Of a DNA stretch of 64,000 nt, positions 36,863 through 59,971 are shown in pieces. Origin of the DNA: Methylomonas paludis. Lineage in GTDB: Bacteria; Pseudomonadota; Gammaproteobacteria; Methylococcales; Methylomonadaceae. The stretch lies in assembly GCF_018734325.1 (NCBI RefSeq), contig NZ_CP073754.1, positions 1,612,001-1,676,000 of the forward strand, given 5' to 3'. The notes beneath the pieces are model-generated. The model did not search any database and had not been told where the DNA came from. It was given only the letters and a program-made list of their open reading frames with translations. Position 1 is the stretch's first letter. Each line of letters begins with the position of its first letter. The translations under genes were made by a program, and so were the position numbers.

Positions 36863-38081
36863 TACGTCTAAAAACAGCCGGATACTGACGGCTTTAACCA
36901 GTACCGCACTGGCTTTGCCGGGTCTGGTACCCAGTGCCCAAGCCGATACTGCACCTCTGAACTATAGTCTGGATACCAATTTCAGCCGTTATGCGGAAAG
37001 TGGGGGCCGGATGAAAATTGATGTTTATCAGGCCGCAGCCACCCTTCCCATCAATGACAAGCTCAGTTTCAGGCTGAATGGTGTTAAAGATGTGATTACC
37101 GGCGCATCACCGGTAGGCCCGGCCTTACCCGGCGCTCCCAGTTGTAAAGGTCCCACCCATGCCGGATTGACTCAGTGTATGTCCGGTGCCTCGATCAGTG
37201 ATGTGCGCGATGCCATTGACCTAAATGCCAGTTATTACTATACAGAAGCCGGCACATTGGATGTGGATGTGGGTCGCTCCAGCGAAAATGATTATGAATC
37301 CAACTTCTTCAATCTTAACAATCGCTGGGAATTCAATAATAAAATGACCACCTTGTCCACCGGTTATGGCTATGCCTCGGATCAGGTATGGGAAATCAAG
37401 GATATCAACGGTGTTAAAGTCAGAACCTCCGGGAATGGTGGGGACAAACAAACCAATCAAAGCATGATAGGCCTGACCCAGATTCTGGATAAAAACTCGC
37501 TAGTGCAGACCAATCTTACTTATTCGTTTAGTGATGGTTATTTATCCGATCCCTATAAATATGCTTACGCGCCCTGGGCGTTGTTCTCGACACCTTATTC
37601 AAGATGGAAGCACGATGCCAGGCCGGGCTTTCATAACCAGATCGGCTGGCTGGCTCGCTATGTACGCAATTTTGAAGCCTTGAATTCTGCGGCTTTACAC
37701 GCCGATTACCGGTTTTATTCCGACACCTGGGGCATAGAATCGCACACTTTCGAATTGTCCTGGCTGCAACCCATAGTCGACGGCTGGCTGCTGACACCGC
37801 GCGCCCGTTATTATACCCAGAGTTCGGCGTTTTTTTATAACACCGTATTCATGGCCCCCACCAGCGATGGTTTTTACTCTTCCGATTATCGTCTAGCCGG
37901 TTTTGGCGCCATCGGTGGCGGCGTACAGCTCAGCAAGGAGTTTTTTAACCGCCTGAAACTGTCTGCCGGGATTGATTTTTATCAGCGTCAGCAGGGCTAT
38001 GGTTTTTCTGGGGGGATAGGCAGCAGTATTGATAACTATACTTTTTCGATGTTTTCGGCGAGTTTTAATTTGAAGTTTTAG
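36843..38081 (+). CDS. DUF3570 outer-membrane-type protein
   Basis: 412 residues. GTG start at 36843, inside the DUF4266 gene (an in-frame GTG follows at 36849); the signal region ends about PSAQA (residue 33). Many beta strands with aromatic girdles and a terminal Phe (FSASFNLKF) indicate a barrel. DUF3570 always accompanies DUF4266 in the clusters I know of; ApbE, a usual further partner, is absent here. Role unknown; possibly assembly or export of a redox lipoprotein. Confidence 0.85.
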   Translation: MVVAAIDTSKNSRILTALTSTALALPGLVPSAQADTAPLNYSLDTNFSRYAESGGRMKIDVYQAAATLPINDKLSFRLNGVKDVITGASPVGPALPGAPSCKGPTHAGLTQCMSGASISDVRDAIDLNASYYYTEAGTLDVDVGRSSENDYESNFFNLNNRWEFNNKMTTLSTGYGYASDQVWEIKDINGVKVRTSGNGGDKQTNQSMIGLTQILDKNSLVQTNLTYSFSDGYLSDPYKYAYAPWALFSTPYSRWKHDARPGFHNQIGWLARYVRNFEALNSAALHADYRFYSDTWGIESHTFELSWLQPIVDGWLLTPRARYYTQSSAFFYNTVFMAPTSDGFYSSDYRLAGFGAIGGGVQLSKEFFNRLKLSAGIDFYQRQQGYGFSGGIGSSIDNYTFSMFSASFNLKF

Positions 38082-38098
38082 AGCAGAAAATAAGGTAG

Positions 38099-38126
38099 CC
38101 TGGATGCAGCGTTAGCGGAATCCAGG
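38099..38126. repeat. REP-like hairpin
   Basis: CCTGGAT / ATCCAGG stem around GCAGCGTTAGCGGA, 17 bp after the DUF3570 stop. Same design as the CCTCGAT / ATCGAGG hairpin inside the 166-bp units. May act at the 3' end of the operon transcript. Confidence 0.6.
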
Positions 38127-38247
38127 ATGAGGGGTATTATTAGTTTGTGTTGAAGTTATTTGCTGCGATAACCTCGATCCCACTTTGCTGCAGCTAGGCT
38201 ACATTGGGTTTGGCGCGGAGCCTATACTACGCGCTAGGTATGTTCGC

Positions 38248-38326
38248 CTTGGCGTCATCAAAAGCTCAGTGGGTTGACGCGCGGTGAGGTGTTAAATATT
38301 AGTTACGCGTTTAACCCGCCCTACGG
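38248..38326 (+). repeat. Dispersed repeat GTGGGTTGACGCGCG, copy 1
   Basis: CTTGGCGTCATC, then GTGGGTTGACGCGCG and, after a variable middle, ACGCGTTTAACCCGCCCTAC as an inverted partner. A second copy lies at 43802-43892. Short palindromic family, not coding. Confidence 0.7.
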
Positions 38327-38356
38327 TTCTAAATCACTTTATTTTCGATCAGAAAA

Positions 38357-40399
38357 TCACACCTGTTTTTTTATAATCACATCAGTATGGGTTTGGCTAA
38401 ATATATCGACGCCGGCTTGGCGTAAGCTTTCAAGCCAGCATTCGGCCTCCATTGTGCCTATTCCGTGATGATGTAATGCCGCTTCTTTCAATAGCTGAAA
38501 TTCATTTGGTAGTGTTGTGGGAAAAATGCCAGGATCATCGGTATTAACACAAACCGGCATTGCCCCTTGTCTTAAATTAAAACGATTGAATTTGCCACCC
38601 GGTTTTAACCAGGTATCATGCGGTGGATACCAGCGAAAAATCGGATGTAGATGATAATCTTCGATACGGCTGATAAAAACATTGCTGGATGGGTTGGCCT
38701 CTATGATTAAGCCTTTTTGAGCATAACGTACTAATAAATAATCCTGTAATGCTTCCATGAAATCCAGCTCAACAGGTGCCAACCAGTCGTTTAAGGGATG
38801 ACAGGCAGTGGGTAATTGTTCGCCTTTTTTTATCAGAACGATTGAAGTTTGGTTTGGCTGAAGCAATTCTTGCGCCGGGCCGAAACGGTCTAAACCCTGA
38901 TAACTGGCGTTAAGCTTATATGCAGTGGAATCGGGTTGGGCATAAGCTTTATCAACATCGGGAAGCCAATGTTTCAGTTCGCTGGGTATGGTTTCGGTTG
39001 CTAGGTATTGGCGCCATTTAACAGGGCAGTTGCGGCGCAGCAGCCAGGCTTGATATAAATCCTCGGGTGTTAACTGATCGGCATAATCAGGATAAACCAG
39101 AGGTGCATAAATGTTGATTCTGGCAACCAATCTTAGCGCCACTACTTCCGCATTGGCCCAAAGTCCGGACAAAATCTGCGCCTGATGCCATGCCCAAACC
39201 AAATTATCCAGATGCTCGGCAACGGTTACAAACACCTCACCGCATTTGAACCACTGTTCAGGTAAGATGCCCAGTGCCAAGCCATGTCCAATACGGTCAT
39301 ATTGGCCCATTTCGCAAAATTGCACGGTTTCATCCAAATGCCGTAATCCACCCAACAAATGATTAAAATCTTCACCGGCATGGATGCTTAAATGTAAACG
39401 CTGGTGTGGGGGGTGATTAAAGCCTAAACTACGCAGTGGTTCGCGTCTAAGCCAACGAATGGCGGGTGCAAAAACTTCGGTAGGTGTGGCCAGCTCATCA
39501 CCTGCCACATCGAGGCCTCTAATAAGTTGGGTTAAATCTAAAACCGTGGTTTTATCTTCACCGATTAGACTATGCGCAGCTGTCGCACTGTTTAAAAACT
39601 GATCGATTTTTTGGGCTGCGCCAAGCGCCTTTATGCGTCTGGCCGTATGGGGTATCTGACTGGGTATGCGGATAAAATGAATGCAGGTGTGGGTGCGGGC
39701 TAAAAATTTGTTCAATTCAGTATTATTGATGTTAAGTTTACCCTTGCCAAGTTGTGTGCAAGAGGTGTTGATAAATCTTAATGCTGCTGATTTATCGGCA
39801 ATCCATTCGGTAATTTTCAACTCCGCCCACTGGTTTTCTTCCCCCAATAATTGATGCAAACTATCCTGATCGCGATGCTGTTCAGAAGCAATTTTACGCA
39901 CTGGGTTATCAAAATAACGGACAAACCGTTTTAAACCGACACCATCATGTATCATGTCCCGCCGAAACAATTGCGCCAAATGCAGGAAGGCTAAGATACA
40001 GGCTTTCTGGTTAGGATTTGCGTGAGGCTGACGATACATTAAAAACAATGCTGTGAGCCAGTACAACCAGCCTAATTGAAACTTGCCCTGGTGATAATTA
40101 TTTAAGGCGCTATATGCCAATTGCTGGGCTGTATGATCTGCCGCAGGCATATTTAAGTTTAACCAGGCACCCGGTTTTATCACTGGTCGGCCCACATGGC
40201 CCAAGCGCCATGCTAAATCCAGGCTGGCTATATGGGTTTGCCAATCAAACTCCTCTGGCACAACACTATTTAACAGGATGCGGAATAAGGTTTGATAAGT
40301 GGTTTGCCATTGGTTGTGCTGTTTTAAAACAGCATGGTCGTAATCTGCCGAAGGCAAGGTTTGGGTTTTTTCTGGCGGTTTACAACTGTTAAAAACCAA
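38357..40399 (-). CDS. RdrB-like adenosine deaminase (RADAR), 5' end lost at an IS
   Basis: 680 residues; the frame begins at a TTG directly at the IS1380 edge, so the true start is uncertain. C-terminal catalytic motifs of the adenosine deaminase superfamily are all visible: SIHAGEDFNHLL (His and Glu of HAGE), DRIGHGLALG, IEANPSSN and NTDDPGIF (metal/catalytic Asp). A ~200-residue insert lies between DRIGHG and IEANPSSN, and DVAGDELATPTEVFAPAIRW precedes HAGE; these features match the divergent deaminase RdrB of the RADAR phage-defence system. The N-terminal HxH metal motif is missing, suggesting about 100-200 residues were lost. No rdrA ATPase gene is present. Removing the IS alone leaves an in-frame ATG-GAA before the TTG, so a shortened start cannot be excluded. 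Confidence 0.65.
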   Translation of the reverse strand: MVFNSCKPPEKTQTLPSADYDHAVLKQHNQWQTTYQTLFRILLNSVVPEEFDWQTHIASLDLAWRLGHVGRPVIKPGAWLNLNMPAADHTAQQLAYSALNNYHQGKFQLGWLYWLTALFLMYRQPHANPNQKACILAFLHLAQLFRRDMIHDGVGLKRFVRYFDNPVRKIASEQHRDQDSLHQLLGEENQWAELKITEWIADKSAALRFINTSCTQLGKGKLNINNTELNKFLARTHTCIHFIRIPSQIPHTARRIKALGAAQKIDQFLNSATAAHSLIGEDKTTVLDLTQLIRGLDVAGDELATPTEVFAPAIRWLRREPLRSLGFNHPPHQRLHLSIHAGEDFNHLLGGLRHLDETVQFCEMGQYDRIGHGLALGILPEQWFKCGEVFVTVAEHLDNLVWAWHQAQILSGLWANAEVVALRLVARINIYAPLVYPDYADQLTPEDLYQAWLLRRNCPVKWRQYLATETIPSELKHWLPDVDKAYAQPDSTAYKLNASYQGLDRFGPAQELLQPNQTSIVLIKKGEQLPTACHPLNDWLAPVELDFMEALQDYLLVRYAQKGLIIEANPSSNVFISRIEDYHLHPIFRWYPPHDTWLKPGGKFNRFNLRQGAMPVCVNTDDPGIFPTTLPNEFQLLKEAALHHHGIGTMEAECWLESLRQAGVDIFSQTHTDVIIKKQV

Positions 40400-42092
40400 C
40401 CTGAATCCGTGTTCCTTTCGGTTTAAGTGAGGGCAGTCGCGTTTCAGACGCGTTTTTTAAAAAAATCTACCACCAATCGAAATTTAACTGCCGTTCATCA
40501 AGCCCTCAGTCGCAAAAATCAATCGTTTCCATGGTATTGCCGGCATCGCCAGATGAAAAACCTGACGCCAAGACAAGCAATCTTCTTCTCTACCCGGAGA
40601 ATCAGCTCGTAACCAGCATCTCAGCTTTCGCGCCGCTTATCCTGATGCAAAGCCAGGCTGCACCACCAATCGCTCTTGTAAATAAGCGAATACTTTTGCC
40701 ACGGGTGAGGCGCACCCTAAGTCCAGCCACCATTGCCGGGCTTTGTGGATCACCTGGGCTGCTCGATACATGACTTCTTGCAGCACCGTTCGTAACCGCC
40801 GTCGTTTTGCCGGATGACGTATTGGCGCCAAGTCGCCAGTCAAGCCCAGTTGACCAATCAGTCGCAAGCAATTATAGGCAAACATACCCATTCTCAATAG
40901 ACAGTCGTTGGTCTCAAACTTTCCAGATGGTAAGCGTTCCATATCCAGGTCAGTTTTGAATTCCGAATGAAATTGTTCATGGGTGCCGTGGTCGCGGTAG
41001 CGTTCAATGACGGTTTCTTCGGGTTCCTCCAGACTCGTCCACCAGCCTTCCAGTTGAATGTCCGGCAGTAATAGCATCTGGCCGTGCTTATTGCTCGTGC
41101 GTTCAATGATCCGCACGACCAGTCTGAAGGGGCGAGTCTGTTTTTTCCAAGCACGTTCCACCGTCAGTGTCATTAACGCTTCCCGTTTACCGGGGCGTTT
41201 TTCAACAAAGGCGCCGGCCGCTTCCGCTTTTTCTAACCAGGATGTCTTATCTTGCCGTCTTGGATTCCACTTGATCAAGTATTCAAAGCGCCTGTTCATG
41301 GCTGCCCAGCGTTCTTTCTCAGCCGCAACCGTAAATAACAGTTTGGCGCTATCAAACCCTGAGTCTTTGCGTAATAACAACGGCAAACCCGGTGCAACCA
41401 AGCGCTCAACTCGAGGAAACAGCCTTTCTAGAAAATAATCAATCTCCAGCGATGAATGCCAGCGGCCTGGACGCAGTTCCAATCCTATACACCAGCCTTC
41501 ATTGCCCAAATAAGCCGCGACAGGCGTATAGCCATCCACTCCCTGATAGGTTCGACTCACCTCTTCCTTCTTGGTACCGCTCTGATCCATGACGAAGGTG
41601 TCCATGTCCAGACAGACGTAGCCTTTATGCGGCGTAATTGGGGCTTCTGTTCGTTCGATGAGTCGTATCGATAGATCATCCACCGGCTCCAGCAGGCTGC
41701 CGCTGACACGATCAAGACGTTGCCGCAGCCACACGCTGCCGGGAACCTTACGTACATCCAATGCCTTCTTGAAAAAACGATCTTCACGAAACGGCTCAAC
41801 AGCCTCGAAGTCGCTTTTGCCTATACTTAAAAGGCCAACAGTGGTTTTGACTAAATCCGAGGTTTTGATACCCTGTGAAACAGGTATTCTACCGTCCACC
41901 ATCACTTCGACATTGACCGCTTCCAGGCACTGGCCGATCAAGGATAGTCCGGCATAGGAGGTAAGTTCCTTTTTGGATTCTTTAAGCTTAAAACGTGCCA
42001 TAATCAAAACGGGTGACTATAGAAAAACTATATTATACCTTTTTTATCATTGACTTATGACTATTTATAAAAAAAACGAACACGGATTCAGG
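40400..42092 (-). mobile_element. IS1380-family insertion sequence, copy 1 (no target duplication)
   Basis: 1693 bp bounded by CCTGAATCCGTGTTC and its inverse at 42078-42092. The left flank (AAAAACCAA) and right flank (TTCCATGC) share no direct repeat, unlike copy 2. The flanks are therefore probably not the original insertion site: an adjacent deletion or recombination is likely, and would explain the truncated RdrB-like gene. Identical in transposase sequence to the copy at 58279. Confidence 0.88.
40637..42001 (-). CDS. IS1380-family transposase (copy 1)
   Basis: 454 residues from the ATG at 42001 (an upstream start at 42007 adds two residues). DDE residues: Asp in YVCLDMDTFVMDQSG (about 128), Asp in LLLRKDSGFDS (about 210) and Glu in HEQFHSEFKTDLDMERLP (about 345). 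GYTPVAAYLGNEGW and ELRPGRWHSS are IS1380-type phrases. Protein identical to copy 2. Confidence 0.93.
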   Translation of the reverse strand: MARFKLKESKKELTSYAGLSLIGQCLEAVNVEVMVDGRIPVSQGIKTSDLVKTTVGLLSIGKSDFEAVEPFREDRFFKKALDVRKVPGSVWLRQRLDRVSGSLLEPVDDLSIRLIERTEAPITPHKGYVCLDMDTFVMDQSGTKKEEVSRTYQGVDGYTPVAAYLGNEGWCIGLELRPGRWHSSLEIDYFLERLFPRVERLVAPGLPLLLRKDSGFDSAKLLFTVAAEKERWAAMNRRFEYLIKWNPRRQDKTSWLEKAEAAGAFVEKRPGKREALMTLTVERAWKKQTRPFRLVVRIIERTSNKHGQMLLLPDIQLEGWWTSLEEPEETVIERYRDHGTHEQFHSEFKTDLDMERLPSGKFETNDCLLRMGMFAYNCLRLIGQLGLTGDLAPIRHPAKRRRLRTVLQEVMYRAAQVIHKARQWWLDLGCASPVAKVFAYLQERLVVQPGFASG

Positions 42093-42386
42093 TTCCATGC
42101 ATTAACCCAAAGTCAAGTTGTTACTCATTAATTCAGTTGATTGGATTAAGCATGGCGATAAGGGCACTTAGCTGGAAAAGCAGTCTGTGAAATCGGATAA
42201 ATTCTTTAACGCTTAAATTGAATCGGTTGAAAGTGGTTGGCAGGTTTATTTAATCAGGCAGTAATTAAATTTGAAATCGGGGGGATTGAATCTGGCGATG
42301 AATGGTTGGCTTTGCGCCATAGAGCGGTGCTATTGAGTATTTGTTGTGCGGGTGGTGTCAACTTCGAGCGGTATTGCTGCGGACAA

Positions 42387-42413
42387 CCTCGATTCCGTGT
42401 TGCTGCATCGAGG
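42387..42413. repeat. REP-like hairpin
   Basis: CCTCGAT / ATCGAGG stem with a CCGTGTTGCTGC loop; solitary relative of the hairpin in the 166-bp units. The 370-bp stretch between the IS and 42467 holds nothing else recognisable. Confidence 0.55.
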
Positions 42414-42466
42414 CTACTGCCGGCCACCCTTCGGCGTTAATGATAGAGTCGGGTGACGCGCAGCGG

Positions 42467-42754
42467 ATGAATGAGTTATTCGGTAGTTTTGGCGGGGCGA
42501 TGACAATTGGGATTTTGTGCATCTACGAGGTGTTGGTGCTGTTGTTCGGTTACTTCAGTCAACCGGTGGCGCTGCCCTTATCGCTGGGTGGGGCGTTTTT
42601 GGCCTTGCTATTGACCGGCAGCAGTTTTGCGATGCCCAGCGTGATCAGTCTGTTGATGTTGATGGGGGGTGAGCAAAAACTCTATTCTGTTGGTCGAATA
42701 TACGATTATCGTGCGCCGGGAACGCGGTTTGACTATTGTCCGCAGTATCATTGA
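42467..42754 (+). CDS. Hypothetical small membrane protein (weak)
   Basis: 95 residues from the ATG at 42467; the longer frame to 42341 runs through a hairpin. Two hydrophobic segments (about 12-32, GILCIYEVLVLLFGYF; about 36-65, LGGAFLALLLTGSSF), then a polar tail. No recognised family and no strong ribosome-binding site, so it may be a gene remnant. Confidence 0.35.
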   Translation: MNELFGSFGGAMTIGILCIYEVLVLLFGYFSQPVALPLSLGGAFLALLLTGSSFAMPSVISLLMLMGGEQKLYSVGRIYDYRAPGTRFDYCPQYH

Positions 42755-42950
42755 CATGGTTCGGCGTCCTCAGCATTGGCCCAGCACGAAAAAAGCGTCA
42801 GCGAATTGAAGTAACGGTTTGTTAAGATGGCGTTGAGTTTAGTCGGGGGGTGTTGATGTTCGACCCGGTCAGGGGTGTCATTTTGTTAGTTGGCGTCACC
42901 AAGTGTTACCCAAGGTCGGCGGCTAAACACTGGATATGGCTGGGTATGTG

Positions 42951-42979
42951 TTGACAAAGCCCGTCCAGAATGATATACA
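42951..42979 (+). promoter_or_regulatory. Sigma-70 promoter of the vapBC-type pair
   Basis: TTGACA (42951-42956), 17-bp spacer, TATACA (42974-42979): a near-consensus promoter 35 bp before the antitoxin ATG. Confidence 0.8.
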
Positions 42980-42996
42980 AATATATTTTGTATATC
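42972..42996. promoter_or_regulatory. Perfect palindromic operator over the -10 box
   Basis: GATATACAAA and its exact inverse TTTGTATATC (10-bp arms, 5-bp TATAT centre) cover the -10 element. Its place is that of the autoregulatory operator of toxin-antitoxin systems, presumably bound by the AbrB-like antitoxin alone or with the toxin. Confidence 0.75.
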
Positions 42997-43013
42997 TAAT
43001 AAGGGTGTCTAAT

Positions 43014-43247
43014 ATGCAAGTTGCCAAATGGGGTAATAGCTTAGCAGTTCGTTTACCTGCCGCCGTTGTCGAGGTGCTTCAGCTCAAAGAAGGTGACGAC
43101 ATCGAAATCCATATTGTTGACGAAAGGGTTTTCGAGCTTAAGAAAAAACCGACTCATCTAGAATTATTTGCGAGGCTTCGGAAATATCGAGGCCGGTTGC
43201 CGGAAGGTTTCAAGTTTGATCGCCTCGAAGCGAATGAAGAACGATAA
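43014..43247 (+). CDS. AbrB/MazE-fold (VapB-type) antitoxin
   Basis: 77 residues from the ATG at 43014. SpoVT/AbrB N-terminus (MQVAKWGNSLAVRLPAAVVE, VLQLKEGDDIEIHI) binds DNA; the C-terminal tail (LELFARLRKYRGRLPEGFKF) should wrap the toxin. The gene overlaps the PIN toxin by 14 bp, and the palindrome at 42972-42996 is a likely target. Confidence 0.9.
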   Translation: MQVAKWGNSLAVRLPAAVVEVLQLKEGDDIEIHIVDERVFELKKKPTHLELFARLRKYRGRLPEGFKFDRLEANEER

Positions 43248-43647
43248 GTGTTTTTTTGACACCAATGTTCTGTTGTACATGTTGTCTGGGGATGGAGAAC
43301 AGGCTGACCATGTTGAAGCCATAGTTTCTAGAGATGGAATTATCAGCGTTCAGGTGCTAAATGAGTTTGCCTCAGTCGCCTCACGAAAATTAGGGATGAC
43401 ATATCCAGAAATTCGGGAATATTTAGCGACTATTCGTGCTGTTTGCGATGTTCGACCTGTGACGGTCGAAACCCATCTATTGGGCTTGGATATGGCAGAG
43501 CGGTATGGCTTTTCTTTTTATGATAGCTTGATTGTCAGTTCTGCCCTTCTGTCCGATTGCTTAACCTTGTATTCGGAAGACATGCAACATGGCCAAACAG
43601 TTGAAAGCAGACTCGTGATTGTCAACCCTTTTCTGGTTGAATTGTAA
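43234..43647 (+). CDS. PIN-domain toxin (VapC-type RNase)
   Basis: 137 residues from the ATG at 43234. PIN acidic residues: Asp in CFFDTNVLLYML (about 9), Glu in VLNEFASVASRK (about 43), Asp in FSFYDSLIVSSALL (about 99) and the last in LYSEDMQHG (about 118). A Mg-dependent endoribonuclease, paired with the overlapping antitoxin. All four positions are kept, so it looks functional. Confidence 0.9.
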   Translation: MKNDKCFFDTNVLLYMLSGDGEQADHVEAIVSRDGIISVQVLNEFASVASRKLGMTYPEIREYLATIRAVCDVRPVTVETHLLGLDMAERYGFSFYDSLIVSSALLSDCLTLYSEDMQHGQTVESRLVIVNPFLVEL

Positions 43648-58278: not shown

Positions 58279-59971
58279 CCTGAATCCGTGTTCGTTTTTT
58301 TTATAAATAGTCATAAGTCAATGATAAAAAAGGTATAATATAGTTTTTCTATAGTCACCCGTTTTGATTATGGCACGTTTTAAGCTTAAAGAATCCAAAA
58401 AGGAACTTACCTCCTATGCCGGACTATCCTTGATCGGCCAGTGCCTGGAAGCGGTCAATGTCGAAGTGATGGTGGACGGTAGAATACCTGTTTCACAGGG
58501 TATCAAAACCTCGGATTTAGTCAAAACCACTGTTGGCCTTTTAAGTATAGGCAAAAGCGACTTCGAGGCTGTTGAGCCGTTTCGTGAAGATCGTTTTTTC
58601 AAGAAGGCATTGGATGTACGTAAGGTTCCCGGCAGCGTGTGGCTGCGGCAACGTCTTGATCGTGTCAGCGGCAGCCTGCTGGAGCCGGTGGATGATCTAT
58701 CGATACGACTCATCGAACGAACAGAAGCCCCAATTACGCCGCATAAAGGCTACGTCTGTCTGGACATGGACACCTTCGTCATGGATCAGAGCGGTACCAA
58801 GAAGGAAGAGGTGAGTCGAACCTATCAGGGAGTGGATGGCTATACGCCTGTCGCGGCTTATTTGGGCAATGAAGGCTGGTGTATAGGATTGGAACTGCGT
58901 CCAGGCCGCTGGCATTCATCGCTGGAGATTGATTATTTTCTAGAAAGGCTGTTTCCTCGAGTTGAGCGCTTGGTTGCACCGGGTTTGCCGTTGTTATTAC
59001 GCAAAGACTCAGGGTTTGATAGCGCCAAACTGTTATTTACGGTTGCGGCTGAGAAAGAACGCTGGGCAGCCATGAACAGGCGCTTTGAATACTTGATCAA
59101 GTGGAATCCAAGACGGCAAGATAAGACATCCTGGTTAGAAAAAGCGGAAGCGGCCGGCGCCTTTGTTGAAAAACGCCCCGGTAAACGGGAAGCGTTAATG
59201 ACACTGACGGTGGAACGTGCTTGGAAAAAACAGACTCGCCCCTTCAGACTGGTCGTGCGGATCATTGAACGCACGAGCAATAAGCACGGCCAGATGCTAT
59301 TACTGCCGGACATTCAACTGGAAGGCTGGTGGACGAGTCTGGAGGAACCCGAAGAAACCGTCATTGAACGCTACCGCGACCACGGCACCCATGAACAATT
59401 TCATTCGGAATTCAAAACTGACCTGGATATGGAACGCTTACCATCTGGAAAGTTTGAGACCAACGACTGTCTATTGAGAATGGGTATGTTTGCCTATAAT
59501 TGCTTGCGACTGATTGGTCAACTGGGCTTGACTGGCGACTTGGCGCCAATACGTCATCCGGCAAAACGACGGCGGTTACGAACGGTGCTGCAAGAAGTCA
59601 TGTATCGAGCAGCCCAGGTGATCCACAAAGCCCGGCAATGGTGGCTGGACTTAGGGTGCGCCTCACCCGTGGCAAAAGTATTCGCTTATTTACAAGAGCG
59701 ATTGGTGGTGCAGCCTGGCTTTGCATCAGGATAAGCGGCGCGAAAGCTGAGATGCTGGTTACGAGCTGATTCTCCGGGTAGAGAAGAAGATTGCTTGTCT
59801 TGGCGTCAGGTTTTTCATCTGGCGATGCCGGCAATACCATGGAAACGATTGATTTTTGCGACTGAGGGCTTGATGAACGGCAGTTAAATTTCGATTGGTG
59901 GTAGATTTTTTTAAAAAACGCGTCTGAAACGCGACTGCCCTCACTTAAACCGAAAGGAACACGGATTCAGG
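58279..59971 (+). mobile_element. IS1380-family insertion sequence, copy 2 (5-bp AAGAA duplication)
   Basis: 1693 bp between CCTGAATCCGTG and its inverse. Target duplication AAGAA at 58274-58278 and 59972-59976. Inserted inside a RAYT gene; removing IS and one duplication copy restores the reading frame, which confirms the ends. Same length as copy 1, opposite orientation. Confidence 0.95.
58370..59734 (+). CDS. IS1380-family transposase (copy 2)
   Basis: 454 residues from the ATG at 58370 (a TTG at 58364 adds two residues), identical to the copy at 40637-42001. DDE motif as described there. Identity of the copies and the clean target duplication point to recent, probably active, transposition. 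Confidence 0.93.
   Translation: MARFKLKESKKELTSYAGLSLIGQCLEAVNVEVMVDGRIPVSQGIKTSDLVKTTVGLLSIGKSDFEAVEPFREDRFFKKALDVRKVPGSVWLRQRLDRVSGSLLEPVDDLSIRLIERTEAPITPHKGYVCLDMDTFVMDQSGTKKEEVSRTYQGVDGYTPVAAYLGNEGWCIGLELRPGRWHSSLEIDYFLERLFPRVERLVAPGLPLLLRKDSGFDSAKLLFTVAAEKERWAAMNRRFEYLIKWNPRRQDKTSWLEKAEAAGAFVEKRPGKREALMTLTVERAWKKQTRPFRLVVRIIERTSNKHGQMLLLPDIQLEGWWTSLEEPEETVIERYRDHGTHEQFHSEFKTDLDMERLPSGKFETNDCLLRMGMFAYNCLRLIGQLGLTGDLAPIRHPAKRRRLRTVLQEVMYRAAQVIHKARQWWLDLGCASPVAKVFAYLQERLVVQPGFASG

Follow-up and report, generated by a model that had tools for sequence, protein, structure and literature searches.

A deaminase frame cut off at an insertion sequence

In the window, the 64,000-nucleotide stretch analysed here of DNA from the methane-oxidising bacterium Methylomonas paludis, a deaminase frame of 680 codons directly adjoins the edge of an insertion sequence (IS) (Table 1). 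As the sequence-only reading had claimed, the frame begins at the IS edge, which its start codon TTG abuts in the ORF reading; the first in-frame ATG is codon 84. The three deaminase motifs listed in that reading were found as well. HAGED, RIGHG and NTDDP are intact, and the His and Glu of HAGE and the His of RIGHG align with H498, E501 and H530 of E. coli RdrB. The adjoining element is bounded on both sides by the end CCTGAATCCGTGTTC. From its Pfam group, DDE_Tnp_1_4, we take it to be an IS1380 element; like members of that family, it carries a transposase of this group between inverted repeats, with 15-bp terminal repeats at both ends.

Table 1. Features of the truncated rdrB locus (window positions)
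Feature	Position	Strand	Evidence
rdrB, C-terminal 680 codons (RADAR ATP deaminase), ~180-residue front absent	38357..40399	-	NF041744, PADLOC, alignment to G117 RdrB
Complete IS1380-type element lacking a target duplication; same sequence as other copies in the genome	40400..42092	.	copy comparison
Left terminal inverted repeat; rdrB junction at 40399/40400	40400..40414	+	
DDE transposase of the IS, 456 aa	40637..42007	-	PF13701 (DDE_Tnp_1_4), E 1.2e-29
Right terminal inverted repeat; 42092/42093 is the inferred deletion junction, past which rdrB has no match	42078..42092	-	
ORF with short AcrB-type transporter piece, facing the cut	42341..42754	+	PF00873, E 6.8e-05, below its cut-off

Profile searches bore out the RdrB-like identity of the window protein. 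The NCBIfam RdrB model NF041744 matched with 615.8 bits (protein residues 88–670 against profile positions 256–850 of 850), a score below the curated cut-off of 800, as is that of an intact Methylomonas RdrB (702.8), and the PADLOC RdrB profile gave an E-value of 3.6e-126. The sequence-only reading had left room for a better match to an unrelated deaminase family; the other models, those of ordinary adenosine deaminases, scored at most 32.9 bits, and RdrB is the best match among the deaminase models tested. Among PDB sequences only two, both of E. coli RdrB, are strongly related (E 2e-21). An AlphaFold2 model of the retained part, built from 40 aligned sequences, is fairly confident (pLDDT 82.4, pTM 0.84), with a poorly modelled loop just behind the NTDDP aspartates (residues 622–624, pLDDT <50). 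A structure search with this model, the fold check proposed from the sequence, yielded eight PDB matches at E <= 0.001, all of them RdrB or RdrA–RdrB complex chains, with TM scores of 0.54–0.57 by query length. Judged by two profile libraries, the sequences of solved structures and the modelled fold, the window protein is RdrB. The likeness to RdrB of the RADAR anti-phage system (NF041744; PDB 8fnv, 8fnw and 8hr7) takes in roughly the final three quarters of the sequence, the three motifs and the fold, whereas RdrB of RADAR also has the first ~180 residues, including an HxH zinc pair, and a partner, RdrA. RdrB characteristically assembles into a dodecameric shell. RdrB proteins average about 900 residues (PMC9994260); counted from the IS edge, the window frame is not full length.

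The G+C content of the remnant is 45% and its GC3 43%, versus 49–57% and 53–60% in the five window genes measured, which would fit an acquired gene without proving it. On the far side of the IS, the ORF with the AcrB-type piece shows a 79% DNA match to another place in the same genome, within a 700-aa ORF. Beyond it, ORFs for a MazE-like antitoxin and a PIN-domain protein (42936–43647) are likely a toxin–antitoxin pair. Short dispersed repeats at 42370–42417 and 38095–38129 have many near-copies in the genome, and the latter also occurs in relatives.

The missing front and the missing partner

The nearest relative found is RdrB of Methylomonas methanica R-45363 (G117; 864 aa), with 57% identity over its residues 187–852. 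The match begins at residue 8 of the window protein and residue 187 of the M. methanica protein, so about 180 residues are missing. In M. methanica RdrB, the HxH histidines are residues 166 and 168. Alignment with 88 full-length RdrB proteins (one best frame of at least 780 aa per locus, from 92 loci, excluding three frames below that length and L101, which duplicates L014) showed His at both positions in 88/88, and both columns are gaps in the window protein, in agreement with the absence of an N-terminal HxH noted earlier. E. coli RdrB needs this zinc pair to deaminate ATP (PMC9994260). Of the four zinc histidines only the two later ones are kept, and with HxH gone half of the metal site is missing. 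The rest of the genome, a single contig of 3.67 Mb, yielded neither the rdrB front nor any second piece of rdrB.

The reported lack of rdrA near the frame holds, and extends to the genome as a whole: searches with the M. methanica RdrA protein and with an RdrA profile found no rdrA, adjoining or distant, on the single contig. The same profile detected rdrA in four of six relatives searched (G117, G107, G115 and G015). It gave no match in the other two, G136, where a 1016-aa frame lies beside the RdrB-like gene, and G099, where the RdrB-like frame begins 119 bp from the contig end. In G115 (L100:10958-13470), rdrA looks split: the profile matches a 459-aa frame, behind which comes one of 359 aa.

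Among 150 other genomes of the family, six matched RdrB, and M. methanica alone did so over most of the protein. Its RADAR locus (L014; the L101 record is identical) belongs to the same genus as the window but holds a complete rdrA (938 aa) upstream of a complete rdrB, 2 bp apart. The 13 kb read there shows no IS, either between the two genes or next to them. Behind this intact rdrB lies a 202-aa ORF (L014:12205-12813, minus strand) with no match in Pfam, NCBIfam or PADLOC.

A single-sequence scan of genome contigs confirmed no RdrB relatives; an alignment-based contig search found 401, of which the best 80 were kept, one being M. methanica itself. Four relatives came from viral contigs, and seven records from plasmids. 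Within the best 80 of 401 loci, rdrA lies <=350 bp upstream of rdrB in 72. At L148, L170 and L177 the rdrA match is farther off and another frame stands directly upstream of rdrB, an arrangement that reads as rdrA split over two frames. At L154, rdrA adjoins the front part of an rdrB frame broken by a run of N in the assembly, and mutation was rejected as the cause of that break. In three loci without rdrA (L122, L145 and L176), the contig ends within 800 bp; one further locus, L180, has a SNF2 helicase in place of rdrA, the only such case in this set. Counting only those of the best 80 of 401 loci whose upstream DNA can be seen, 76 of 77 have rdrA upstream. The profile used for this census was built by iteration over frames from these very loci, and the weakest of its matches (E about 1e-18 to 1e-28, at some Firmicutes-type loci) are less independent than the others. 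The earlier question of whether rdrA sits beside the intact homologue is thus answered in the affirmative, and the lone rdrB state is derived. The survey backs the view that rdrB is normally accompanied by rdrA, the one exception having a different neighbour.

These data bear directly on another proposal, that the short deaminase stands alone by nature and acquired a new start at the IS. The intact motifs speak for it, but the two zinc ligands present in every full-length relative are lost, and rdrA accompanies rdrB in nearly all related loci whose upstream DNA is visible. The proposed in-frame ATG-GAA just beyond the IS proved to lie at 42099 (minus strand), at the opposite edge of the element. 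It is 1700 bp from the deaminase frame, in another reading frame, and reaches a stop after 21 codons, which contradicts its use as a re-made start. We regard a stand-alone origin as scarcely credible.

The exceptional locus L180 (L180:3146-10584) encodes a full-length RdrB-like deaminase of 881 aa that keeps HxH (NF041744, 187.6 bits) and has no rdrA. A 753-aa SNF2-family helicase lies 14 bp upstream, itself preceded, with a 4-bp overlap, by a radical SAM/SPASM protein; a 115-aa ORF and a SAM methyltransferase follow downstream. This is possibly a different RdrB-based system. It had no match in phages and none confirmed in viral contigs, and a limited literature search did not find such an arrangement.

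Insertion and a probable one-sided deletion

Members of the IS1380 family duplicate 4–5 bp of their target. The window copy has no such duplication (flanks AACCAA / TTCCAT), and a second copy in the window (58279–59971, L021) has AAGAA on both sides, a difference that the sequence-only reading had described correctly. The genome holds 12 contiguous near-identical copies, 11 at full score and one with a 1-base difference; target duplications flank ten of them (nine of 5 bp, one of 6 bp), leaving the window copy and L026 without. L026 (G000:C1:2711558-2713250), with flanks AATGA / TAGCT, perhaps marks a second deletion or rearrangement. Six of seven divergent full copies have 5-bp duplications, the exception being L029, and two copies interrupted by other DNA have matching ends (TGCTA and AATCA, respectively); these totals exclude the partial copy L027 and the pieces L028, L040 and L041. 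With L026 and L029 also lacking it, a missing duplication is not unique to the window locus. Unlike most copies of the element, the window copy shows what is expected after a one-sided deletion.

Many identical IS copies and unmatched flanks at the window copy could also result from an inversion or translocation between two copies that placed the other half of the gene elsewhere in the chromosome. Such a reciprocal exchange predicts a partner copy with TTCCA on the left and ACCAA on the right, in the IS direction. These flanks were absent from all IS copies examined, including three not in the common direction, whose flanks were read both ways and which all have target duplications. The rdrB front and rdrA are likewise unmatched elsewhere in the genome. 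Reciprocal rearrangement is thus contradicted unless the other half was lost later, and we consider it very improbable. A one-sided deletion leaves no partner copy, consistent with the absent reciprocal flanks.

To the left of the locus, the genes for DUF3570 and redoxin and further genes stand in the same order in G173 (L089), where the window genes between about 28.5 and 33.5 kb have no match. The G173 DNA beyond DUF3570 does not match the rdrB frame, and the 275 bp between DUF3570 and rdrB matched relatives only in short repeats. In G173 the right-hand gene is on another contig, so no clean empty site was found.

The loss on one side at the IS end, the lack of a target duplication and the lack of a reciprocal junction fit an insertion followed by a deletion. 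We therefore share the main inference of the sequence-only reading: the best explanation, with a probability of roughly 0.88, is that a complete rdrA–rdrB pair was broken by insertion of the IS1380-type element and a subsequent one-sided deletion. We infer the order of events, the deletion step and the former presence of rdrA as follows. Initially, an ancestral Methylomonas strain would have carried the complete pair. An IS1380-type element from a burst of identical copies then presumably inserted into rdrB, shortly behind the HxH motif. Afterwards, a second, one-sided event would have removed the upstream side, comprising the rdrB front, rdrA and one copy of the target duplication. This deletion may have occurred by recombination between two same-direction IS copies or as an adjacent deletion caused by the IS.

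Age and fate of the remnant

The retained part shows no measurable decay. In columns where at least 85% of the other 87 RdrB proteins share one residue, the window protein has the consensus at 41 of 42, the same count as intact M. methanica RdrB; at >=60% consensus both have 97 of 108, with three private deviations each. The alignment misplaces the first residue of the window protein; these counts start at its residue 20. In 2000 simulations of uniform random change, the median divergence at which the first stop arose was 0.7% substitutions per site, and the central 90% of runs spanned about 0.1–2.9%. The absence of decay together with the identical IS copies suggests that the loss is recent, and the front of rdrB and rdrA were probably lost not long ago. 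Divergence from the M. methanica gene is saturated at synonymous sites (dS), so no dN/dS was obtained.

The fully open frame could also mean that the remnant is still selected. A truncated protein might still be made from the TTG at the IS edge, with an AAAGGA stretch inside the IS end as putative ribosome site, and serve a reduced role in nucleotide binding or shell formation without deamination. Its 680 codons without a stop, its unchanged conserved positions and the fairly confident model of the retained part agree with this. However, a recent loss would account for the open frame just as well, the protein lacks two zinc ligands and its partner, and promoter-like sites are not in excess in 38000–42600 (4 found versus 6.7 expected). 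We consider continued production unlikely, and less likely still that truncation by the IS created a pseudo-enzyme, a beheaded RdrB whose expression starts at the IS edge and which selection maintains for a role other than catalysis. Such a protein might, for instance, form a shell that binds nucleotides or act as a decoy for anti-RADAR factors of phages.

Returning to insertion and deletion as the preferred origin, the window protein is a member of the RdrB family by descent that lacks the defining catalytic and partner features of the family. In this strain, the remnant, without two of the four zinc histidines, the N-terminal part and RdrA, should not function as a RADAR deaminase, and it most likely has no present function.

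In summary, the locus is most likely a recently broken known defence system rather than a new one, a case of ordinary gene decay. It illustrates neatly how one lineage may lose a defence system of two genes: a burst of IS copies, an insertion that hits the effector gene, then a deletion to one side. A gene finder relying only on an RdrB profile match would list part of RADAR for this genome, although a working system is very probably absent.
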